A stretch of DNA of 27,110 bases from a virus, in the IMG/VR virus record IMGVR_UViG_3300005613_003534, positions 1 to 27,110 of that record; one strand, given 5' to 3'. A model generated the notes under the pieces. It did no database searches. It had not been told where the DNA came from and worked only from the letters and a program-made list of their open reading frames with translations. A program made the position numbers and the translations under genes. Of the stretch, positions 11,302-21,884 are shown in pieces; position 1 is the stretch's first letter; the number at the start of each line of letters is the position of its first letter.

Positions 11302-12009
11302 TTAAATCGGCATCTCCAACTGTGCTTGCTTCTGGCGGTCGGCTTCGATACGTTTCATCGCCATTGCCACGTAATCTGGATTGGTGTCGCAGCCGAACCA
11401 CCTGCGTCCCAGACGGTCAGCGGCTACGGCGGTCGTGCCACTGCCCATGAAGGGGTCGAAGATGAGATCACTCTCATTACTCCATTGACCCACAATATAT
11501 TCCACAGTATCTATAGGACGAGGACATGGATGCCAGCCAGACTCTTTTTCTAATACCCACTTGCACGTTTGGCCGATATGCCAATCCCTGCGCATTCCCA
11601 TTTCACCCTTGCTAGCAAATTGATATTGTGTGTTTCCTTTATGCCAAAACAGAATCGGGTCAAGTGCCCACTGTACATCAACCTTACGTATCTGAACAAA
11701 GTTCTTGCATCCAGCCATCAATCGGGCCTGGGGAAACCTACTCCATGCTGGCAGGCAATGCCGCATTGCCTGCCAAAGAAATAACAGGCGTCCGTCTTTA
11801 CATATTCGCTCTGCCTCAGCCATCCATATTTCCAGCAAGTCAAGATATTGTTTGAGTGGCAGGTTATCATCAAAGCCGTTACCATAATCATAGTTGACAT
11901 TGAACGGCGGGTCAGCTACCACCAAATCCACGCACCCGTCAGGGAGATTTTTCATTATTTCTAAACAATCCCCCACAGCGATGGTGTTTTCCTCAAACGG
12001 TCCTATCAT
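11302..12009 (-). CDS. DNA methyltransferase (DPPF type, beta class)
   Basis: This 235-residue protein is complete: 'MIGPFEENTIAVGDCLEIMK', motif IV 'LVVADPPFNVNYDYG', a middle recognition region with 'WALDPILFWHKGNTQYQF', 'HPCPRPIDTVEYIVGQWS' and AdoMet motif I 'FDPFMGSGTTAVAADRLGRR'. DPPF is an accepted variant of DPPY. Its C-terminus (RIEADRQKQAQLEMPI) is clearly related to that of the upstream gene (RIKADRQGRAQLEMSL), so the two share recent ancestry or have exchanged ends. The start overlaps the previous stop as ATGA, so translation is likely coupled. It is the last member of the methyltransferase island. Confidence 0.9.
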   Translation of the reverse strand: MIGPFEENTIAVGDCLEIMKNLPDGCVDLVVADPPFNVNYDYGNGFDDNLPLKQYLDLLEIWMAEAERICKDGRLLFLWQAMRHCLPAWSRFPQARLMAGCKNFVQIRKVDVQWALDPILFWHKGNTQYQFASKGEMGMRRDWHIGQTCKWVLEKESGWHPCPRPIDTVEYIVGQWSNESDLIFDPFMGSGTTAVAADRLGRRWFGCDTNPDYVAMAMKRIEADRQKQAQLEMPI

Positions 12010-13601
12010 AGGCTCATCTCCAACTGCGCTCTCCCCTGGCGGTCGGCCTTGATGCGCTCCATCGCCATCTCCGCATACTCAGGATTGAGGTCTATCCCCA
12101 GCCAGTTCCTACCCAACCGCTCGGCCACCAAGCCAGTGGTACCCGCTCCGATGAATGGATCAAGAACGAGGCAGGGAACTGGTTCAGGCGAGCAGTTGGT
12201 CACAGAATCGCCATCCAGGTCCCCGTCAGGGCAAATACCACAGCCGCAGGCGGGCCGCCAGCCGAGAGTTTGTATAGAACCATTGATGCGCCCGCCCCCT
12301 GACTTGCCTACTGTGCCCGATAATTCTCCACTCCCCCCTCGTGCTTCGTGTGCTGATTGTGTTTTAGGACATACCTTTGACTTTCCAGGCGTCCTCTTCA
12401 CCACCCTCACCCACGCCTTCCCGCACTTCGGGCAAGCCCCCCGCTCTGATGTCCCCGCCTTGATGCACGGCTCTATCAAGTCAGGCGGAAAGGTGTTGCC
12501 CGTGATAAATACGCTACCGTTGCGCCTTGCCACAAACGTACCGTGTTCGGTTTGTGGACACCATACGACGCCAGTATATTTGACGGTCGCAATGTTAACA
12601 CCCTTGCCACCCGTTCCCCGCAGTGAGCGGTAGGGCCGATGTGTTAGATAGCAGGCGAACACACCATCTTTCCTCTCTGTTGTAACTGCCGTATAACCAA
12701 GGCGAATTGCAACTGCCTGAATATCATCAATGAAGGATTCTGATTTCTGAATGATACTTTGCCTACCATCATCTTTGCGGGTGTGCCCATCACCACCTAT
12801 CACGCCACGCATCAAGCCGCGCAACGCTGGCTCTGACCAACTCAGCACGTCAGCAGGCAATTCCTTGTGTGGTGCTTGATTACGTAACCAGCGACCAATG
12901 GCCCCGCTTAGCGTAAACACACAACTGTTGGCGGGGCGGCCTTGCCATTGCCGCTCACGTTGGGAAGTTTTATAGTCTGCCCCTAACACATCTAATAGGT
13001 ATTGGATGCGTTCCACTTTGTCAGCATTCACGCTCGTTGATTGTTCAATGCGTACTTGCTTGCTATGTTGTATCCAGCCTTCCGTTACATACCATCCAAA
13101 AAGCTCTGCGAGCAACGGGTCAAGCTCTATCGCTTCTCTGTTGTCTTGCCATTCAGCAGCTACAGGGATGTAATGACGCGAGTTCAACAAGTGGGCTTGC
13201 ACCACTTCATACTCCGTGCTGACAGATTGCGTTGACGTTCGCCTGCGTACCACACAACGATGATTAGGCGTAAGAAGTAGAGATAGGTCACGGTTGCCAG
13301 CCTGAATCATTGTTTCATCCCGCACATCATATTGAGACACACCCAATAACGGAGTCCAGGAGAGCTTGCCACTTGCTAAGTCAAATGAGGCGATTAGCTC
13401 TCTCTTTTCCAAGTCAACGTATGACTGCCACCCAGTACGTGTTAGGCACTCTGTCTCTTCGTCAACGCAAGCGAAGTGTGCGCCCTTGAACGGCTTGGTG
13501 CTGATTGTCCAGGTATCAGGCTTTGTATTAAATTCAATAGGCTCAAAAAATTCAGCCAGATCGGCGGGCACGTCCTTAGCCTCGATTATGATTTCGGCCA
13601 T
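12006..13601 (-). CDS. C-terminal half of DNA methyltransferase B, with intein
   Basis: The 531-residue frame starts at ATG 13601, with AGGGAG eight bases before, overlapping the end of the HNH gene. Host residues 1-44 end 'ISTKPFKGAHFA' and resume at 370 as 'TFPPDLIEPCIKAGTS'. The joined motif GAHFATFPPDLI is standard in phage methyltransferases, so an intein occupies 45-369. A zinc-ribbon (CPKCGKAW ... CGCGIC) and AdoMet motif I 'VLDPFIGAGTTGLVAERLGR' follow. Motif IV (SPPY/DPPY) is absent; it lies in the upstream fragments 14191-16192. Either the two halves form one split enzyme or this is the remnant of a second methyltransferase whose first half was replaced by the HNH gene. Confidence 0.85.
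   Translation of the reverse strand: MAEIIIEAKDVPADLAEFFEPIEFNTKPDTWTISTKPFKGAHFACVDEETECLTRTGWQSYVDLEKRELIASFDLASGKLSWTPLLGVSQYDVRDETMIQAGNRDLSLLLTPNHRCVVRRRTSTQSVSTEYEVVQAHLLNSRHYIPVAAEWQDNREAIELDPLLAELFGWYVTEGWIQHSKQVRIEQSTSVNADKVERIQYLLDVLGADYKTSQRERQWQGRPANSCVFTLSGAIGRWLRNQAPHKELPADVLSWSEPALRGLMRGVIGGDGHTRKDDGRQSIIQKSESFIDDIQAVAIRLGYTAVTTERKDGVFACYLTHRPYRSLRGTGGKGVNIATVKYTGVVWCPQTEHGTFVARRNGSVFITGNTFPPDLIEPCIKAGTSERGACPKCGKAWVRVVKRTPGKSKVCPKTQSAHEARGGSGELSGTVGKSGGGRINGSIQTLGWRPACGCGICPDGDLDGDSVTNCSPEPVPCLVLDPFIGAGTTGLVAERLGRNWLGIDLNPEYAEMAMERIKADRQGRAQLEMSL
12495..13469 (-). mobile_element. LAGLIDADG intein in methyltransferase B C-half
   Basis: Residues 45-369 of the host frame (325 aa). 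It begins with Cys1 ('CVDEETECLTRTGWQSY'). A block-B-like 'LLLTPNHRCVV' follows, then two LAGLIDADG-type helices ('LLAELFGWYVTEGWI' and 'LRGLMRGVIGGDGHT'), and it ends 'RRNGSVFITGN' before Thr+1 of the extein. The terminal Gly-Asn in place of His-Asn is an accepted variant. The insertion site is the conserved GAHFA|TFPP motif. Confidence 0.85.
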
Positions 13602-14194
13602 ACGCTTACTCCCTTACTGGAATTACACCGCTTGCAGGCAGGCACAATGTTATCCTTGGTGTGGCTGCCCCCTTTAGCAATCGGCACTACGTGGTCGCGC
13701 GTGGGCGGGTTGTCATTAGTAAATTTCGTCCTACAGTAAAAGCACTGATGCCCATGCTTTTCCAGCAAGGCTGACCAATCATCGGCAGAAAAATCACAGA
13801 TGATATTGTCCATACGGGAGCGTCGCTTGGTGGCCGCTCTGCGCTGTGCTTCAATTCCCCTTGAGGTATGGGCGTATCGCAACCACCGCTCACGCCTTAG
13901 CGCTTGGGCGTGGGGGGTGCGGGCTCGCTCGCGCTCAGCTTTGCGAAATTCAGGGCTTTGGCGTTTGCGCCGCATCCTGTCCCGATTCCATAACCGATGC
14001 TTAGTTCTGCCTTGCTCCGATTGGCTGTATCTTCTTACCTGCTCTAAGGTAGCCTCATGGTGTTCATAGCGATATTCTTGAGACTGGGCCTTGATACATT
14101 CCTTACAAGCTGACCGCAACCCATCCGCCATTGTCTTATCGTGATAGAACTCTGATTCGGGTTTGCTCTCGCCACACTTGCGACAAGTTTTCAC
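13586..14194 (-). CDS. HNH homing endonuclease between methyltransferase B halves
   Basis: The 202-residue protein starts at GTG 14194, overlapping the upstream TGA (TTGTGA), with GAGG upstream. Residues 1-35 form a zinc finger (CRKC ... CKEC). A long basic helical middle follows. The C-terminal HNH domain reads 'CFYCRTKF', then 'RDHVVPIAKGG', then 'DNIVPACKRCNSSKG', with the catalytic His in DHV and the Asn/Cys pairs in place. It has no LAGLIDADG motifs and no visible intron core around it. It separates the first half of methyltransferase B from the second, at a point where both flanks show related Trp-containing motifs (RTCWKV and DTWTI). Confidence 0.85.
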   Translation of the reverse strand: MKTCRKCGESKPESEFYHDKTMADGLRSACKECIKAQSQEYRYEHHEATLEQVRRYSQSEQGRTKHRLWNRDRMRRKRQSPEFRKAERERARTPHAQALRRERWLRYAHTSRGIEAQRRAATKRRSRMDNIICDFSADDWSALLEKHGHQCFYCRTKFTNDNPPTRDHVVPIAKGGSHTKDNIVPACKRCNSSKGVSVWPKS

Positions 14195-16074
14195 AATATA
14201 CCTCGCTTAATCAATTCCATAATTACTGTTTGTTTCTGCTCTGACGATAAGTCCGATCTTAACTTCACATAGTTTGCATCCACTTTCCAACAGGTGCGCT
14301 TGTTGCGGCCTGCGGGGTTCTGTAACTTTCCAGCTTCCCGATGGTCTATCCCACGCATCTCGTCTGGGCTGCGGGTGCGTTGCTTGCTATTCCAAGCATA
14401 CTGATTGTGCTCAATGCTTGATTCCTTTAGCGGCTCCCTCACCGCATCCTGGTCGTAGAAGTAGGACTTACTCTTGCTCAGCAAGAACATGTACTCGTGT
14501 GCCTTCGTTGGCCTGTCCCTCACGCTCTCTGGCATACAGTTGTGGGTCAGCACGCCAGACGCCAGGGCAAACAGGTGTGGCCCATCTTCGACGGTGATGT
14601 CCCAAAACTTGCGTCCCTTGCTCTTGCCAATTCGCACAACCTCTGTGTCAGACTTGGCGTTGGGGTGGGTGCTACGCTGTAATCGTATCTCTCCCCTGAA
14701 GGATGGGTGCCTCTTGCCAGTAGTTGTCTCTGTTGAGAATGCGAGCTTGAGTCTTAGCTGAATGTTCAGGCGGGCACAAATCACCCGAAGGTCTTTGGCC
14801 CACTGGTAGTTTCTGGTGAAGCTGAGCCGCCAACGGTCATTAGCCCCATCGTAATGCCCATCACCTTCAAGATAGCCATCCAGAACCCCACTCAAGAATA
14901 CGTTCCCGCGCTGCCATGCCTTTGTTGTCAGGTGCTTGCCCTTGGCTGTTCTGCCAGCCACGTAATCACTCAGGATGCCTCGTAAAGTAGCTCCATGCAG
15001 GTTGATTGTGGCAGCGTTGCCTCCAGTGGCGTGCATTGCGCAAGTCCCGTCATACAAACGCGCAATCTTACGCAACTTCTCAAAGCGGGATACCTCCATA
15101 ACGTGTGAGGCGATTTGAATACAATCCTCACTCCTGCTACCCTCGGCAAGATACAACCCCACAAACCAACCAGTAAGCTGAGGGGGCAGCCCTCCACGGA
15201 GTTTGTACGGCGGCTCCGGCAAACTCGTTGACTGAATCACATCCCCTACTTTCAGCGCGTCAGTTCTGACATTACCCCGCTGGGTAGGCCACAGATGGTC
15301 GGGGGTACAACCAATCCGCTCCCCGCTCCGCAACTCAATCTCTATTGGCTGCTCAGGGCGTGGGTTTTTGTGCCATGCCAAAACCTGCGTCCACTTCTCT
15401 CCGTTCCACAGCTTAACAGTGGAGGGGTCTAGCCGCGCCGCATCCTTGACCGTCATCGGTATATCGCCCTTTTGAGAACGCACATAAAGCCACGCCCCAC
15501 CGCTGAGGCAATTTGGCTTCTGCCAGATGATGTCCGAGCGCAACCACCAGCCATCGGCTTGAAGCGCAAGGGCTACACGCCAGGGGATACCAACGAGGTC
15601 TTTGGGCTTGAGGCCGATAGGAACATTAGGGCGAGTACCCATAAAGGCCGCCGTGCCAGCATTGCTTCGCTGCTTAACACTGGCAGTATCTATGCCGCCA
15701 CCTCGATAATTCCCCCCCGCATAGCTATCCCCCAGGTTCAGCCACAGCGTTCCGTCGCCCCTCAGCACCCGCCGCACCTCTCGGAATATCGCCACTAGGT
15801 GCTCAACATAAAGCTCAGGCGTTGGTTCTAGGCCCAGACAGCCACGCCATGCACCGCAGCGCTGACAAAAGGCAGAGGGTGCCTTCTCCTGACGCACACC
15901 CGCATTGAAGGCTTCTTCTCCTGAAACATTGCCGCCGCGCAGCGTACTTTTACCAGTACCGTGTTCAGCGGCCACGCTCTTACCGCGCCCTGGGGGGGCA
16001 ACCTCATCACCCCAAACGTGCTCACATTCTGCATCACCGCCCCATACTTGCGGCTCTATGCCATAATCACGCAA
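14191..16074 (-). CDS. Middle portion of DNA methyltransferase B, with intein (frameshifted from its start)
   Basis: The 627-residue open frame begins with a TTG that is really Leu of the conserved motif WGLRDYG, so it has no true start of its own. The preceding SPPY motif lies upstream, separated by seven extra bases. Host parts: residues 1-188 ('YGIEPQVWGGDAECEHVWGD', 'LRGDGTLWLNLGDSYAGGNY', 'LQADGWWLRSDIIWQKPN') and 513-598 ('CMPESVRDRPTKAHEYMFLL', 'RNKRTCWKV'). After RTCWKV the frame runs into 29 unrelated residues and stops at the HNH start. Residues 189-512 are an intein. The natural continuation (STKPFKGAHFATFPP) is in the frame at 12006-13601. An active enzyme would need frameshift recovery, two splicing events and association of two chains. 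Confidence 0.8.
   Translation of the reverse strand: MRDYGIEPQVWGGDAECEHVWGDEVAPPGRGKSVAAEHGTGKSTLRGGNVSGEEAFNAGVRQEKAPSAFCQRCGAWRGCLGLEPTPELYVEHLVAIFREVRRVLRGDGTLWLNLGDSYAGGNYRGGGIDTASVKQRSNAGTAAFMGTRPNVPIGLKPKDLVGIPWRVALALQADGWWLRSDIIWQKPNCLSGGAWLYVRSQKGDIPMTVKDAARLDPSTVKLWNGEKWTQVLAWHKNPRPEQPIEIELRSGERIGCTPDHLWPTQRGNVRTDALKVGDVIQSTSLPEPPYKLRGGLPPQLTGWFVGLYLAEGSRSEDCIQIASHVMEVSRFEKLRKIARLYDGTCAMHATGGNAATINLHGATLRGILSDYVAGRTAKGKHLTTKAWQRGNVFLSGVLDGYLEGDGHYDGANDRWRLSFTRNYQWAKDLRVICARLNIQLRLKLAFSTETTTGKRHPSFRGEIRLQRSTHPNAKSDTEVVRIGKSKGRKFWDITVEDGPHLFALASGVLTHNCMPESVRDRPTKAHEYMFLLSKSKSYFYDQDAVREPLKESSIEHNQYAWNSKQRTRSPDEMRGIDHREAGKLQNPAGRNKRTCWKVDANYVKLRSDLSSEQKQTVIMELIKRGIL
14539..15510 (-). 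mobile_element. LAGLIDADG intein in methyltransferase B
   Basis: Residues 189-512 of the host frame (324 aa). It starts 'CLSGGAWLYVRSQKGDIPMT'. Block B is 'IGCTPDHLWPTQRGN'. The two endonuclease helices are 'LTGWFVGLYLAEGSRS' and 'FLSGVLDGYLEGDGHYDG'. Block F/G is 'FWDITVEDGPHLFALASGV' ending LTHN, with Cys+1 in the extein. All class 1 splicing residues (Cys1, penultimate His, Asn, Cys+1) are present, so splicing should work. The site QKPN|CMPES is a known intein position in phage methyltransferases. Confidence 0.92.
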
Positions 16075-16217: not shown

Positions 16218-16652
16218 TATTGTACCCAAAATAACATCCTCTACTTCCTGAACAAGCACTCCATCCCCACCCGCTCTGTATCTGAGGCACGGTCAATTAA
16301 GCACTGGGGGGCTAGTGGGCCTGACAACCCCATGTATGGCCGCAATGGCGCTGATAACCCAAACTGGAAGCGGCAAGCGCAAAAAGCACGTAAACGAGAC
16401 AATCACACCTGCCAAGTCTGTGGCATTACAGAAGCCGTCCTTGGGCGCAAGCTACACGTTCATCACAAGATTCCCCTTCGCGAGTTTGACAGGGACTTTC
16501 GGAAGGCAAACGCTCTGGCAAATCTTGTCTCTCTTTGCCCCTCTTGCCATATTGCTTTAGAATGGCAGCAGGGTCAGAGAGGCCACTCGAATCAGCCGCC
16601 CACCTCCACCAGTCAAAGCGAGCCTGTCCTATCTCCGCATACTCCTCACTGA
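16218..16652 (+). pseudogene. 5'-truncated HNH homing endonuclease, opposite strand
   Basis: The only plus-strand gene in the island. The frame is open from 16218. Its first part, 'CTQNNILYFLNKHSIPTRSV' then 'SEARSIKHWG', matches the tail of a helix-turn-helix usually placed before such endonucleases. The earlier part of that domain is cut off by TAA codons and no start has a ribosome site; the first ATG is at 16332. Then 'NPMYGRNGADNPNWK' (NUMOD3-like) and an HNH domain 'CQVCGITE...LHVHHKIPLREF...NALANLVSLCPSCH' follow. The last 30 or so residues are antisense to methyltransferase A. It is probably a decayed element; alternatively a short product from ATG 16332 is still made. Confidence 0.65.
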
Positions 16653-18918
16653 TTTCAATCGCCAAGATATTTCTCCATCCTGCAAGATAAGCCCCAATTG
16701 CTTCGCTCATTGTCCCCGCAAACGGGACAAGAATCACCGCGTCGTCCAGGTAGGCTTCGGGGGGTCTGATAAGGCGAGCTAGATATTCACAGAGGGATAG
16801 TGGTTTTATGCAAGGGTGATGATTGCGACTTATAATTGGCTTATTGGGCTTACCTGTCTGATTGTGTACTCCCCCGTCTAGCCAAGATGGTTGTCCCGAA
16901 ATACGTTGCTCCTCAAAGCCCTCCAACCCCGCCTCCCTCTCCCGCCCACTCGCCTTCGCTGTATATAGGAAGCGTGTTGCCGCTCCCTGGGCGTTGCCTG
17001 CCGCCCCCCTTACCCTTCTTGCCTGTCTGATGGAGTTTGCGATGGCATCCCGAACAGAGCCACACAATATCGAAAGGCTTGCCGTAGTCGGGATGGTGTC
17101 GATGTTCTCCCATAGCTCCGCAAATGACACAAGGTTCTGGATCAGGATACATCTCTTGGAGCTTGGCATAGAGCCCAGAATAGCTTGTAATTCCTCTTGG
17201 CTGGAATCCGAGGTCTTTATTGCGACAAGCGTAACTGCAATACGTGTTGCGCATGAGTCGCACAGGCTTTCCACAAACGGGACATTTAGGGCGAGTCTTT
17301 CGGCGAGCTTCGTCTGCACATTCCCTGGAGCAATACTTTCGATGGTTTGACGGATAATCCTCAAAGACCTTCCCGCACTGTTGGCATGTGTATTCTTGCA
17401 TTTTGAGCCTCCCTTTTCAGCTTGGCTCATTATACCATGCTTTGGCGTTAAAGGCAAGTTGCAAAAAATACAGAAGCGGGATTCACCCTGGATGTTCTTA
17501 AAATAGCGAGATGCACCGCCCTTGTCATTGTGGCCCCTTGCTGTAGTATCCAGTGTTGTGCTGGCCTTCATTGCATTGCTGTCTTTTAAGCTACCCGTGT
17601 ACTTTGGCTTTCCCGTTGGTGGCCTGATACTGCTCTTACTCTCCCCACTCATCTCATCCAACTGCCGCGCCGCCTCCTCGTCAAGGATCACATTGGCAGG
17701 CCAGCGGCCTTGCTTAGCATAGGGACGCAAATCTATAGTATCAAGCCCCCCTCGCATAGCGACACGGCCTTCCTTCGCTGCTTGTGATTGATTGCGATTC
17801 CATTCCGCTCGATGCCGTTCTGCATCCTTGCCGCTTGTCTCAATTCGACATTCGTCAATGTTCAGCGCCGCTGTCCCGTCCTCCACCGCACACTCTCGGT
17901 ACGTCTTACCCCGTGGCTTGCGTGCTAGGATGATTGGAGTAAAGTCAGGGTGTAGTTCCTGCTCGACGAGCGGCGATATAACACTCTCTTGTGCAAAAAG
18001 TGTTAGGATGCCTTGCCACTTCAAGCTTGCGGCGCTCAAATTCTCGCCCACAGTAGCCGCAACTGACGACCATCCATTTATCTGGTTGTTTTTGGCTTGG
18101 GTGGTATTTTCGGATATGGCTTGAGATAGTAACAAGTTCAAGATTCTCAGGTCGGTTATCATCTCTAATGCCATTTCGGTGGTGACATTGCTCATCTGGG
18201 CGCAAAGGCCGACCAAGCAACTCCTCCAAGATGACATCGTGTTCAAGTCTATACCGACCATCGGCAACTCTGACGGCAACGTATCCATCAGATCGCGTAA
18301 AGCGCCCACCCTTCCAGTTTGGATTATTCTCACCACTTCGCCCACGTGCAGGGTCTCCACATTTGTGGCTGCAATACGTTGCCTCTCCCCGCTTGATTCG
18401 GCTTCGCTGGGCATAGAACCGCTTCCCGCAGGTGGGACAGATTCGCCATTCGCCTCTTCGTTGTGACAACCCAACGCATCGCTTGCTACAATATTTTCCT
18501 CCACCTCGCTTGACATCGGCTTGCGAGGCTTCAAACTCTCGCCCGCACTGTTGACACTTTCGCTTGACCATTGTGCTGCCCTCCTTAGCTGATTAATATG
18601 CTCAGCTAGGATTGTAGCACAAAGATCAAATCCTGTCAAGTTTGGGCTAGGCTTCCGCGCTAATATCACATTTTCAACAGCGGGTTTCAAAGCTGTCCCA
18701 TAGCCGTCCCAGGCCTGGGCTAGGTCGGTGGCGGGTGCGGTAAGGTTCATTGTTGCTTCACCTTCTCCAAGTTTGTCAAATCCTGCGCCGCCGTGTGTCT
18801 TGGCTGGACGCCAGTTAGGAGATTGGCCCACAACCTCCCGCTCCGCCCCAGCCGCCTTGTCGATGCTCTTGCTAATTGATAAACTCTTTGGAAAGCTCAG
18901 CCAGAGCCATAAAGCCAC
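16426..18918 (-). CDS. Second part of DNA methyltransferase A, containing two nested HNH genes
   Basis: The 830-residue open frame carries methyltransferase blocks separated by insertions. Residues 9-90: 'FPKSLSISKSIDKAAGAERE' to 'ENVILARKP'. Residues 326-473: 'FTPIILARKPRGKTYRECAV' to 'GGASRYF'. Residues 645 to about 785: 'GAATRFLYTAKASGREREAG', 'NHHPCIKPLSLCEYLARLIR' and 'VPFAGTMSEAIGAYLAGWRN'. Residues 91-325 and 474-644 coincide with HNH genes in another frame, yet the host frame has no stop there. The first part of the enzyme, with DPPY, is at 18897-19277 in a different frame. The ATG 18918 is an internal codon of that first part, not a good start. The C-terminal 45 residues are antisense to the truncated HNH gene. 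Whether any full-length enzyme is made is unknown. Confidence 0.75.
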   Translation of the reverse strand: MALWLWLSFPKSLSISKSIDKAAGAEREVVGQSPNWRPAKTHGGAGFDKLGEGEATMNLTAPATDLAQAWDGYGTALKPAVENVILARKPSPNLTGFDLCATILAEHINQLRRAAQWSSESVNSAGESLKPRKPMSSEVEENIVASDALGCHNEEANGESVPPAGSGSMPSEAESSGERQRIAATNVETLHVGEVVRIIQTGRVGALRDLMDTLPSELPMVGIDLNTMSSWRSCLVGLCAQMSNVTTEMALEMITDLRILNLLLSQAISENTTQAKNNQINGWSSVAATVGENLSAASLKWQGILTLFAQESVISPLVEQELHPDFTPIILARKPRGKTYRECAVEDGTAALNIDECRIETSGKDAERHRAEWNRNQSQAAKEGRVAMRGGLDTIDLRPYAKQGRWPANVILDEEAARQLDEMSGESKSSIRPPTGKPKYTGSLKDSNAMKASTTLDTTARGHNDKGGASRYFKNIQGESRFCIFCNLPLTPKHGIMSQAEKGGSKCKNTHANSAGRSLRIIRQTIESIAPGNVQTKLAERLALNVPFVESLCDSCATRIAVTLVAIKTSDSSQEELQAILGSMPSSKRCILIQNLVSFAELWENIDTIPTTASLSILCGSVRDAIANSIRQARRVRGAAGNAQGAATRFLYTAKASGREREAGLEGFEEQRISGQPSWLDGGVHNQTGKPNKPIISRNHHPCIKPLSLCEYLARLIRPPEAYLDDAVILVPFAGTMSEAIGAYLAGWRNILAIEISEEYAEIGQARFDWWRWAADSSGLSDPAAILKQYGKRGKERQDLPERLPSESPCQTREGESCDERVACAQGRLL
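16913..17401 (-). CDS. HNH homing endonuclease nested in methyltransferase A (second insertion)
   Basis: The 162-residue frame starts at ATG 17401, seven bases after GGGAGG, and has its own promoter at 17429-17457. Two CxxC...CxxxC fingers (Cys6/9/24/28 and 40/43/55/59) precede an HNH domain, 'CVICGAMGEHRHHPDYGKPF' then 'DIVWLCSGCHRKLHQTGKK'. True homology probably ends near residue 130 (about 17012); the remaining Gly-rich tail is the host gene read in another frame. The element spans about 16987-17499, 171 codons of the host frame. Start region and fingers resemble the other nested HNH protein (KRKCQQCGREFE versus EYTCQQCGKVFE), so the two are relatives. Confidence 0.85.
   Translation of the reverse strand: MQEYTCQQCGKVFEDYPSNHRKYCSRECADEARRKTRPKCPVCGKPVRLMRNTYCSYACRNKDLGFQPRGITSYSGLYAKLQEMYPDPEPCVICGAMGEHRHHPDYGKPFDIVWLCSGCHRKLHQTGKKGKGGGRQRPGSGNTLPIYSEGEWAGEGGGVGGL
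17429..17457 (-). promoter_or_regulatory. Sigma70 promoter for nested HNH gene 2
   Basis: Minus strand: TTGCCT (17452-17457), 17-base spacer ending TGG, TATAAT (17429-17434). The -10 context ATGGTATAAT matches the phage's other leftward promoters. The expected transcript starts near 17422, about 20 bases before the HNH ATG. Confidence 0.7.
17945..18571 (-). CDS. HNH homing endonuclease nested in methyltransferase A (first insertion)
   Basis: The 208-residue protein starts at ATG 18571 after AAGGAGGG, with its own promoter at 18611-18639. Three zinc fingers are visible: Cys6/9/28/32, Cys45/48/67/71 and Cys171/174/193/197. Between them are a NUMOD3-like 'SGENNPNWKGG' (79-89) and an HNH_3-type domain 'EHDVILEELLGRPLRPDEQC' with 'HHRNGIRDDNRPENLELVTI' (His130, His131, Asn133, Asn143). 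Its TGA lies one base before the host sequence resumes, so there is no room for a group I intron core on the 3' side and only about 80 bases, mostly promoter, on the 5' side. It is a free-standing endonuclease gene inside a host gene, not an intron or intein ORF. Confidence 0.88.
   Translation of the reverse strand: MVKRKCQQCGREFEASQADVKRGGGKYCSKRCVGLSQRRGEWRICPTCGKRFYAQRSRIKRGEATYCSHKCGDPARGRSGENNPNWKGGRFTRSDGYVAVRVADGRYRLEHDVILEELLGRPLRPDEQCHHRNGIRDDNRPENLELVTISSHIRKYHPSQKQPDKWMVVSCGYCGREFERRKLEVARHPNTFCTRECYIAARRAGTTP
18611..18639 (-). promoter_or_regulatory. Sigma70 promoter for nested HNH gene 1
   Basis: Minus strand: TTGACA (18634-18639), 17-base spacer, TACAAT (18611-18616). This is near-consensus and lies entirely within the inserted segment between the host codons for ARKP and the HNH ribosome site. 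The predicted start near 18604 gives a leader of about 33 bases. Confidence 0.8.
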
Positions 18919-19295: not shown

Positions 19296-21884
19296 TTATC
19301 TCTGAAATATCGGCGCCAGCTCCCTACTTCTCTGAAACAGTGCATGATGGGCGCCAAGGGACAGCGGCTCTTTCTTAGCCACAACTGACCCCGTAGCGGG
19401 AACACCTCCGATGCGGAATATAGCCCTCAAATTCAATTCCACTGTGTCAAGACAGTGATCACTTGCTTTCGGGGAGCCGAACCCCCGCCACTCCTCAACG
19501 AACTTATTCATGGACTGATGTGGCGTCATGCGACCATCCATGCCGAGCACTCCCTTGAGAAAGACTTTCTTGTTCCTAAAGTGAACTGCCATCCCTGCGA
19601 ATCTCAGTGCCTTCGGTATCCCCTCCGTTGTCTTCCCCTGTATCGGCAGATTCGTCTCCTCTGTCATTTCCTGAACAAAGAGGTCTTGCGCTGCGTCGGA
19701 CTCGATAGTGATCACTGCAGGATTCCACTTCGCAGCTTGTATCTTGATGATCTCTTTCATCTGGGCATTAGAGGCGTCAGACACGATGAAGTCGAGAACG
19801 TACACACATTTATTCAGCGGGTCATATCCTGACACGTTGAGTGCAAAAGGGTCAGATGCGCCAGGCCGTCGTGTGCGATGACGGGGACGGTGCGATAGGT
19901 CACATGCGATGAATATACGTAGGTGAGGAGGCTCCTCTATGTAATAATGGAGGTCAGACTCCCGAAGGAAGCCACTCTCTAGGTCGATGGGCTTCTGCTC
20001 GTACTGAGCACTGAACTGGATATAGCTGGCACGCTGTTCCTTCTCAAGCATCTCCGTTGGGAACTGCTTTGACCAGAGCGGTTTCTCTGGCGTTGCGGAG
20101 AATACCTTACTCTCGTACAAGTCAAGAAGCTTCCCATACAAATCCTGTGTGTAGAAACGTGCCCCTATGATAAAGATGCGGCTGCCAGGCAGGAACCTAT
20201 CAAGCCTCTTAGATAGAGAACCAAAGTACCAATTTGCCAAGTGACTGCGCTGTGTCACGGTCATGGAATTTTGCTGCGTTACGAGATCGTCGCCTATTAT
20301 TTTACTAGCTCGATAGCCCACGGTGGCGCTGCCGACACCGAGGGCAAGGAGAGAGGGGTGAGGCGACTTCCACTCGCTTCTCCTTATGAACTTCTGCGTG
20401 TTCGTCCACCTCGTGGCTTCGCTGCGAGGGGGGATGAGATCGCCGTATATCTCCTTGTAAGCAGGCGTTGACATAATCTCCTCAATGAACTGGAGCAACT
20501 GAGCAGAGTAGGTCTCCGTGTGAGTTGCGACGAAGATGCGTTCGTTGGGATTGCGGCCTAGCATATCCGCTGCGAGGAAGCCTATGAGGGTGCTGTTGTG
20601 AACGACGAAGTCATTGGCAATAAATGTCTTGTCTTCCTCAACTGATAAGCAGCGGCATGGCCGCTTGCCACCCTTGCTGATGTTCACGATGCTGTCTGGG
20701 AGATACTCCCCATCGAAGGTTCGTCTATACCAGCCTGCTTCTTTCCACTCCCTAGCACGCTGGACTTTCTTAGTATGCCTAAACGGGATAGTATTGAGGA
20801 ACTTTGAAACCTCATCAATGCAAGTAATGTCAAGGGCATAATAAGTTTTAACTCCACGATCAACTCCCTTGTAGCGATACCTCATACTGCGCTTCCGTAC
20901 CCTTCCAGAGATGCCAAGCCGTGTGAGCAAGTGAAGAACTCCAAACAGCAATGTTCGGCTGACACTTGAGAAGGAGACACAGACATCCGTGCGAGCATTT
21001 CCCCGTTTGTTTATCGTTCCATCACAGTCAAAGTATGCAGCTATGAAATTGCGTACCGCTTCCACGTCGGCGCGAAGGACGGCATCTGGCACTTGCTTTG
21101 CAGAAGAAGCGCAGCCCCACAAGGCAATATCGGGACGACGCATCAGATCGCGAGCACCACTGAGGGCTCGGATATTAAAAGTTTTTGTTGGTCTATCACC
21201 ATGCCCAGCCTTAGACTGCGAGTAGTTATAGCCCAGAGAGACAAGGCAGTGTTTTACATCTTCAAGAATGTTATTGTCTGAATTCGTAACGTGGCAATTT
21301 CCGCTGGTAAGCGAGCCATCTCCCACAAAATATCCCAAGAGCCTAGCTTCCTCTAGCCTCATCGACGTTGATTTGAAGAGCTGTTTCTGGCTTACGGCAA
21401 GAGACATCCCAGCCTTTAGGTCGCTTGCATTCATCCAGCCCTCAGTTGTGAGAAATGGATGATCGTATGCAGAGAAAATCTCACGACCACTAAAGGTTTC
21501 AATATGTAAAACGGGAAGGTCACCTTGTTCATAGACAGCTTGTACCCGCCTGGGCTGCCCGGTATGAGATATCACAGTGTCGCCAACTTTAATGCTCCCT
21601 AACCGCTTATGCGTTCCATCTCCCATTAAAACAAGAGATTCTTCCCATAGTGGTTTTGCGTGTCCTGGGGGGGCCAAGAGGAGAAATTCCTCCAGATCGT
21701 CATCCTCCAAGTATGGTATGATCTCATCTTGATACGCAGGCATCTTCCAGCCGAAGACCTTCTCGTATCGCTCTTTGAAGGTGAGATCACGCCCCACTGT
21801 GGCGTGTTCCTGTGGGAACATGGATGCTCTGAGCTTACGGGAAAGAGCGAGGGCTTCTTCGTTAGAGTCGAGAAAGGTACTCAT
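19296..21884 (-). CDS. terL: Large terminase subunit with intein in the P-loop
   Basis: The 862-residue frame starts at ATG 21884 (AAGG upstream). Host residues 1-77 end 'FLLLAPPGHAK' and resume at 431 with 'STLIGFLAADMLGRNPNERI'; together these give the Walker A loop APPGHAKST. Walker B is 'SKIIGDDLVTQQNS'. The C-terminal nuclease has 'IFIACDLSH', 'AVITIESDAAQDLFVQEM' and 'SDHCLDTVELNLRAI', with acidic residues at the expected places. Spliced length would be about 509 residues, normal for phage TerL. The protein packages DNA into the prohead through the portal. Because the intein splits the ATP-binding loop, packaging depends on splicing. Confidence 0.92.
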   Translation of the reverse strand: MSTFLDSNEEALALSRKLRASMFPQEHATVGRDLTFKERYEKVFGWKMPAYQDEIIPYLEDDDLEEFLLLAPPGHAKPLWEESLVLMGDGTHKRLGSIKVGDTVISHTGQPRRVQAVYEQGDLPVLHIETFSGREIFSAYDHPFLTTEGWMNASDLKAGMSLAVSQKQLFKSTSMRLEEARLLGYFVGDGSLTSGNCHVTNSDNNILEDVKHCLVSLGYNYSQSKAGHGDRPTKTFNIRALSGARDLMRRPDIALWGCASSAKQVPDAVLRADVEAVRNFIAAYFDCDGTINKRGNARTDVCVSFSSVSRTLLFGVLHLLTRLGISGRVRKRSMRYRYKGVDRGVKTYYALDITCIDEVSKFLNTIPFRHTKKVQRAREWKEAGWYRRTFDGEYLPDSIVNISKGGKRPCRCLSVEEDKTFIANDFVVHNSTLIGFLAADMLGRNPNERIFVATHTETYSAQLLQFIEEIMSTPAYKEIYGDLIPPRSEATRWTNTQKFIRRSEWKSPHPSLLALGVGSATVGYRASKIIGDDLVTQQNSMTVTQRSHLANWYFGSLSKRLDRFLPGSRIFIIGARFYTQDLYGKLLDLYESKVFSATPEKPLWSKQFPTEMLEKEQRASYIQFSAQYEQKPIDLESGFLRESDLHYYIEEPPHLRIFIACDLSHRPRHRTRRPGASDPFALNVSGYDPLNKCVYVLDFIVSDASNAQMKEIIKIQAAKWNPAVITIESDAAQDLFVQEMTEETNLPIQGKTTEGIPKALRFAGMAVHFRNKKVFLKGVLGMDGRMTPHQSMNKFVEEWRGFGSPKASDHCLDTVELNLRAIFRIGGVPATGSVVAKKEPLSLGAHHALFQRSRELAPIFQR
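20595..21653 (-). mobile_element. LAGLIDADG intein in terminase Walker A, with Pro at position 1
   Basis: Residues 78-430 (353 aa). Block A starts 'PLWEESLVLMGDG', with Pro where class 1 inteins have Cys or Ser. Block B is 'FSAYDHPFLTTEGW'. The endonuclease helices are 'LLGYFVGDGSLT' and 'FIAAYFDCDGTIN'. Block F is 'RPCRCLSVEEDKTFIAN' and block G ends 'DFVVHN' before Ser+1. The Cys in RCLSV sits where class 1 inteins have Asp in YDLxV; a block F Cys nucleophile with a non-nucleophilic first residue is the hallmark of class 3 inteins. The expected Trp and Thr of the class 3 WCT signature appear to be Phe and Val here. Confidence 0.88.

Follow-up and report, generated by a model that had tools for sequence, protein, structure and literature searches.

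Inteins of the large terminase subunit (TerL) are known from the cultured, viable phage phiCbK, for which the first residue, a Pro (Pro1), and the insertion site were published in 2012, in a paper without discussion of block F or of the Trp and Thr positions (PMC3556154). The inteins of phiCbK and its relatives (JX100813, JX163858 and others) share with the terminase intein described here the insertion site K/S of the Walker A motif (the slash marks the point of insertion), Pro1, a Cys at F:4, a Phe at B:12 and a Val at G:5. However, they are overall about 28-30% identical to it and their endonuclease motifs are degenerate, whereas both LAGLIDADG motifs are intact and contain the acidic residue in our intein.

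In class 3 inteins, the Cys at F:4 is the proven nucleophile, which attacks the N-terminal junction and hands the acyl group to the +1 residue (PMC4031507); it occupies the place of the block F Asp of class 1 (PMC6195587; PMC7891396). A review regards class 3 as monophyletic and states that all its members share two more conserved positions (PMC4031507), and a survey from 2020 defined it by the lack of Cys at N1:1 together with a Cys at C2:4 (PMC7891396). The class 3 inteins MP-Be DnaB, Msm DnaBi1 (6bs8) and MchDnaB1 (6rix) resemble our intein in a non-nucleophilic first residue and the F:4 Cys, but differ in having Trp at B:12 and Thr at G:5 (hence WCT), a longer spacing between blocks F and G and weak profile similarity to it. 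The AceL NrdHF intein, whose class 3 chemistry was shown experimentally, likewise has another hydrophobic residue in place of the B:12 Trp, but it is split, the residue is a Met and the Thr at G:5 is kept (PMC7891396). As for class 1, gp41-1 (6qaz, 6riz; PMC7664689) shares with our intein the Phe at B:12 and an F-G offset of 16 and superposes on its predicted model with an rmsd of 1.2-1.5 Å over about 126 residues, but differs by Cys1 and Asp107. The gp41-1 variant C1A/F65W/D107C (Thr123 was already there) mostly underwent cleavage rather than splicing, and Beyer and colleagues regarded a direct evolution of class 3 from class 1 as unlikely (PMC7664689).

The terminase intein and its boundaries

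The DNA under study (the window) is a single IMG/VR virus record of 27,110 bases, IMGVR_UViG_3300005613_003534. Its terL gene carries an intein that splits the Walker A loop, APPGHAK/STLIG in translation (Table 1), and that matches two Pfam entries, the splicing domain PF14890 and the endonuclease LAGLIDADG_3 (PF14528), the latter with two stretches; a Rfam search (E up to 0.1) gave no match anywhere in the window. The translated intein begins with Pro1 (PLWEESLVLMGDG), block B reads SAYDHPFLT, which places His65 at B:10 and Phe67 at B:12, block F reads CRCLSV with Cys335 at F:4, and the C-terminal junction is VVHN/S, comprising Val351, His352, Asn353 and Ser+1. In the alignment, Cys335 falls on the same position as the class 1 Asp. 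A reading made from the sequence alone had claimed a Cys at the place of this Asp in RCLSV as well as Phe (after DHP) and Val (before HN) instead of Trp and Thr, and these assignments hold.

Table 1. Position of the terL gene, its intein and the intein residues discussed in the text, in window coordinates
Feature	Position	Strand	Basis
terL, terminase large subunit precursor, 862 aa including the intein	19296..21884	(-)	single open frame; PHROG 38 terminase large subunit 3e-61
intein, 353 aa, PLWE...VVHN, inserted after K77 and before the Ser of Walker A, PPGHAK/ST	20595..21653	(-)	translation; intein-less homologue L013
Pro1 (A:1), without side-chain nucleophile	21651..21653	(-)	translation
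His65 (B:10), predicted to activate the N-terminal junction	21459..21461	(-)	His in 39/39
Phe67 (B:12), Trp position of WCT class 3	21453..21455	(-)	alignment of 39
LAGLIDADG motif 1, LLGYFVGDG, intein 105-113	21315..21341	(-)	Pfam and sequence
LAGLIDADG motif 2, FIAAYFDCDG, intein 203-212	21018..21047	(-)	Pfam and sequence
Cys333 (F:2), first Cys of CRC	20655..20657	(-)	Cys 36, Thr 3 of 39
Cys335 (F:4), predicted first nucleophile	20649..20651	(-)	Cys 39/39; aligns with class 1 Asp
Val351 (G:5), Thr position of WCT class 3	20601..20603	(-)	Val 39/39
His352-Asn353, C-terminal Asn cyclization pair	20595..20600	(-)	Asn 39/39, His 36/39
Ser+1, part of Walker A and predicted to act as second nucleophile	20592..20594	(-)	+1 Ser 29, Thr 9, Cys 1 of 39

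The boundaries can be read from a metagenomic relative (L013, IMGVR_UViG_3300005613_005315), whose TerL lacks the intein, shares 87% amino acid identity over extein residues 1-509 and runs across the site without an insert (APPGHAKSTLIGFLAADMLGR), reading APPGHAK/STLIGF with zero residues between Lys and Ser. Since this homologue has an empty site, the insert is exactly PLWE...VVHN, from Pro to Asn; the earlier placement of the intein in the Walker A loop with Pro first is thereby confirmed to the residue, and a misplaced boundary, with a standard nucleophile shifted by at least one residue, the objection which the sequence-only reading had itself raised, is ruled out. At the empty site of L013, 8 of 12 bases (-3 to +9, in the window 20586-20594 and 21654-21656) differ from the window, all silently (A-K-S-T-L), and the next 47 bases beyond these 12 are identical in both; the silent differences could represent a homing-resistant recoded site or the edge of a conversion tract.

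A family of inteins with Cys at F:4 and Val at G:5

Judged by sequence comparison, the window intein is a member of a widespread family and not a single oddity. We use the name FCV for inteins with Cys at F:4, Val at G:5 and mostly Phe at B:12, and aligned and delimited 39 of them, 35 in terminases and four representing the RuvB of Micromonosporaceae, obtained by tblastn on phage genomes, by scanning viral contigs with alignments or patterns and by a single scan of bacterial genomes; outside annotated phages, the TerL identity of the hosts was judged by eye from the extein sequence. The tblastn search revealed inteins at the same TerL site in phiCbK-like phages of Caulobacter and Brevundimonas as well as in a Mesorhizobium phage. 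Scanning the viral contigs with the single sequence of the window intein returned zero close relatives, which were found only via alignments or P-loop patterns, and a plasmid search gave only distant LAGLIDADG/helicase matches.

His at B:10, Cys at F:4 and the terminal Asn (G:7) are invariant among the 39 members, while A1 (Pro in 35, Asp in three, Arg in one), F:2 and the +1 residue vary (Table 1). Val at G:5 is likewise found in all, a CxC motif is formed in 36 of the 39, the same number have His at G:6, and position B:12 is occupied by Phe (32), Tyr (three), Leu (two), Val (one) or His (one), never by Trp. Because 39 diverse inteins share the combination of a non-nucleophilic A1 and F:4 Cys, this pattern is not a matter of chance. 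The window intein has the features that define the family, namely a non-nucleophilic A1, Cys at F:4, Val at G:5, the offset of 16 and the position within one clade. The three FCV inteins starting with Asp (L006, L022, L024) are the only ones with Thr at F:2 and form one subclade. In some terminases (L022, L178) there are two inteins, with FCV at Walker A and class 1 further along, ahead of TRWH; the intein at the Walker A site of L188 is instead a WCT mini-intein. Among the papers covered by our literature search, we found none describing an F-C-V group or treating its members as a separate clade, nor one linking FCV to RuvB inteins or pointing out the class 1-like scaffold.

In the RuvB of about 20 Micromonosporaceae (Micromonospora/Actinoplanes-type; L193-L217), an FCV intein splits the Walker A motif at GK/T, the identity of the host genes being confirmed with NCBIfam. 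It shares with the window intein the FCV signature, the Walker A site and about 38-40% identity, but resides in a chromosomal helicase, not in a terminase. The 20 RuvB inteins have one common length and one signature, and their endonuclease looks intact. Within Micromonospora the intein is patchy, with a full-length match (83-100% identity) in 10 of 121 sampled genomes. The median dN/dS is 0.13 for the splicing domain, 0.15 for the endonuclease and 0.11 for RuvB itself, and the purifying selection on the splicing domain argues that the intein is maintained as a working element. With values of 0.9-1.0, the dS of the intein is roughly double the 0.46 of the extein, in keeping with horizontal movement. 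An intein in the RuvB of Micromonospora was not described in any paper found in the literature search.

Relation to class 1 and class 3 inteins

The Walker A site of TerL elsewhere hosts class 1 inteins (L120, L118, L190 and L192, with Cys1 and Asp at F:4) as well as canonical class 3 inteins (L063 with Gln1, HEW, Cys and Thr; L182 and L188a with Leu1). Pro1 alone is not unusual, for the WCT inteins L012, L184 and L185 begin with Pro too; what is unusual in FCV is a Cys at F:4 and no nucleophile at A1, yet without the Trp and the Thr. At F:4, the class 1 inteins compared carry Asp, Asn, His or another residue but never Cys; the part of this comparison tallied with a fixed-spacing pattern excludes WCT class 3 by design.

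When compared with the defined classes, the window intein lacks the Cys or Ser at position 1 required for class 1, and with Pro1, Ser+1, His at G:6, Ala at B:7 and Cys at F:4 it departs from class 2 (KlbA type). It agrees with WCT class 3 in the absence of Cys or Ser at position 1 and in the Cys at F:4, but has Phe67 instead of Trp at B:12 and Val351 instead of Thr at G:5, and it falls within the broad class 3 definition (no Cys at N1:1, Cys at C2:4) of PMC7891396. By its residues it is thus class-3-like at A1 and F:4, without belonging to WCT class 3 at B:12 and G:5.

The splicing domain as a whole points in another direction. Each of the 31 FCV splicing domains that were scored fits the class 1 profile better than the class 3 profile (95 versus 56 bits for the window domain), a preference that persists with the four signature columns masked and the profile sizes equalised and after removal of the nearest class 1 group (76.6 versus 46.7 bits), whereas held-out class 3 sequences favour the class 3 profile by about 58 to 123 bits. 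The offset between F:4 and G:5 is 16 in all 39 FCV members and in most of the class 1 inteins examined, compared with 17-19 in WCT, although this spacing is a soft character, an offset of 17 being found in some class 1 inteins and in one WCT mini-intein. In a PDB sequence search with the window intein, class 1 gp41-1 was the best match (2e-6), while the class 3 structure 6bs8 reached only 0.064; the same search with L063 gave class 3 structures as best matches (4e-11) and no class 1 intein. It should be noted, however, that similarity to class 1 profiles is not descent and that class 3 may simply have diverged faster.

In signature-masked trees, FCV forms one clade (92/99 and 92/95) and WCT class 3 a separate one (100/100), and in the unmasked tree the FCV clade has an SH-aLRT of 98. 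Topology constraint tests rejected neither a joint clade of FCV and class 3 (p 0.33) nor a clade of FCV and the TerL class 1 group (p 0.21), and the tree therefore fails as proof of a descent of FCV from class 1. Structure comparison is no better as a discriminator: with the AlphaFold2 model of the window intein (pLDDT 78, pTM 0.57), gp41-1 gave Z values of 20.9-22.0 and class 3 DnaB 19.1-19.4, too close to decide. The sequence-only reading had considered an intermediate between class 1 and class 3. As a description of the residues this stands, A1 and the F:4 Cys being shared with class 3, while B:12, G:5, the F-G spacing and the profile are nearer to class 1 and Trp and Thr are absent; as a statement on descent it is not borne out by the trees.

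Proposed splicing route and its alternatives

The LAGLIDADG intein of the window most probably removes itself from the terminase Walker A loop by a class-3-like route that uses Cys335. Aided by His65, Cys335 would attack the peptide bond between Lys and Pro1 directly and hold the N-extein as a thioester, the block F branched intermediate; the acyl group would pass to Ser+1, Asn353 would cyclise and an O-N shift would yield the intact GHAKST loop. In this route, Phe at B:12 and Val at G:5 would take the places of Trp and Thr, on a splicing domain with a class 1-like profile and F-G spacing. We infer this chemistry, its order and the inactivity of the unspliced precursor; from Walker A biology, an ATPase loop interrupted at this motif should be nonfunctional until it is spliced.

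The FCV family apparently does splice, since its members lie as intact frames in an ATPase loop, viable phages carry them and the RuvB copies are under purifying selection. That this happens as a variant splicing class probably using the block F Cys, as the sequence-only reading had proposed, is well supported by the conservation of this residue throughout the aligned family. Loss of the Trp or the Thr is tolerable, judging by AceL NrdHF, which works with Met at B:12 and whose T144A mutant still splices, about tenfold more slowly (PMC7891396). There are points to the contrary: in FCV, W and T are missing together, a combination beyond the published AceL NrdHF precedents, and the class 1 intein given A1, W, C and T was mostly cleaved (PMC7664689). 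The association of A1 with F:4 moreover belongs to one clade and so amounts to a single evolutionary event in addition to WCT class 3, Cys333 might be the nucleophile instead, and Pro1 makes the scissile bond a tertiary amide, although WCT inteins with Pro1 exist.

The same invariance of F:4 speaks against a class 2-like mechanism, in which Ser+1 would attack the Lys-Pro1 bond directly and Cys335 would merely replace the activating Asp, as direct attack would not require a Cys there. The non-nucleophilic A1 and the Ser, Thr or Cys at +1 in all FCV members would suit it, but known class 2 inteins have Ala1, Cys+1 and Ser at G:6 and need Thr at B:7 and Asp at F:4 (PMC4031507), in place of which the window intein has Pro1, Ser+1, His at G:6, Cys at F:4 and, as in most members, Ala at B:7; we consider this mechanism improbable. 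Still more improbable is a degenerate intein that has lost splicing and leaves TerL interrupted. In its favour are the absence of the class 1 nucleophile and of the class 3 W and T, and the degraded endonuclease motifs of the phiCbK-like relatives, but the frame is open, the active-site set is conserved in 39 of 39 members, the RuvB copies are under purifying selection and the carrier phages are viable. The CxC pair formed by Cys333 and Cys335 might in addition double as a redox switch, delaying splicing and hence packaging, given that CxC occurs in 36 of 39 FCV inteins, that oxidation of the catalytic Cys reversibly blocks the class 3 Msm DnaBi1 intein (PMC6195587) and that the insertion should keep the Walker A loop inactive until it is removed. 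We regard such a switch as unlikely, as the first Cys is missing in the three Asp1 members and constitutive splicing is the usual assumption for inteins that carry a homing endonuclease (PMC7891396); that splicing times packaging, as put forward in the sequence-only reading, is only a possibility.

The history of the proposed Cys335 route is a separate question. FCV could represent a second, independent origin of splicing by a block F Cys as first nucleophile, derived from a class 1 scaffold through replacement of the F:4 Asp by Cys and the loss of Cys1, and working without the supposedly necessary Trp and Thr; we give this slightly less than an even chance. That the family is instead ordinary class 3 of WCT descent, minus Trp and Thr and with the same chemistry, is a serious though not a favoured possibility. 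The window intein fits the broad definition behind the 1701 class 3 inteins of PMC7891396, for which deviations of 6.1% at W and 4.6% at T were reported, and FCV members may already be among these deviants; the joint clade with class 3 was not rejected either. WCT descent is harder to reconcile with the class 1 preference of 31 of 31 domains under masking and size equalisation, with the class 1-like offset and with gp41-1 as best PDB sequence match.

If a second origin were true, it would contradict the published single origin of class 3 and the view that class 1 is unlikely to give rise to class 3. The FCV family may be a counterexample to those views, though trees do not settle it, and a natural, conserved family that combines an F:4 Cys with class 1-like surroundings and lacks a nucleophile at position 1 opens the question to a direct test. 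It may show a workable set of residues on a class 1-like scaffold, namely Phe at B:12, Pro1 and Val at G:5 as opposed to Trp and Thr, and would supply protein engineers with cis-splicing inteins with an internal first nucleophile, members of which are at hand in cultured phages (phiCbK) and in cultured Micromonospora.

Other interrupted genes in the window

A methylase-like ORF of 830 aa at 16426-18918 (-) contains a duplicated ILARKP motif and two long in-frame stretches that were not identified as an intein. The DNA methylase (N6_N4_Mtase) at 14191-16074 (-) is split by a second intein (KPN/CLSGGAWLYV ... WDITVEDGPHLFALASGVLTHN/CMPESV), whose Cys1, B:12 Trp and block F Asp assign it to class 1 by residues. 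A third intein (GAHFA/CVDEETECLTRTGW ... SVFITGN/TFPPDLIEP), with Cys1 and Gly before the Asn, lies in the ORF at 12006-13601 (-), apparently the rest of this methylase. The Rfam search gave no group I intron at the split methylase. The region 12006-14194 (-) also holds an HNH endonuclease ORF (13586-14194), which separates the two parts of the methylase, and from this arrangement the methylase gene seems to be split by a further insertion.
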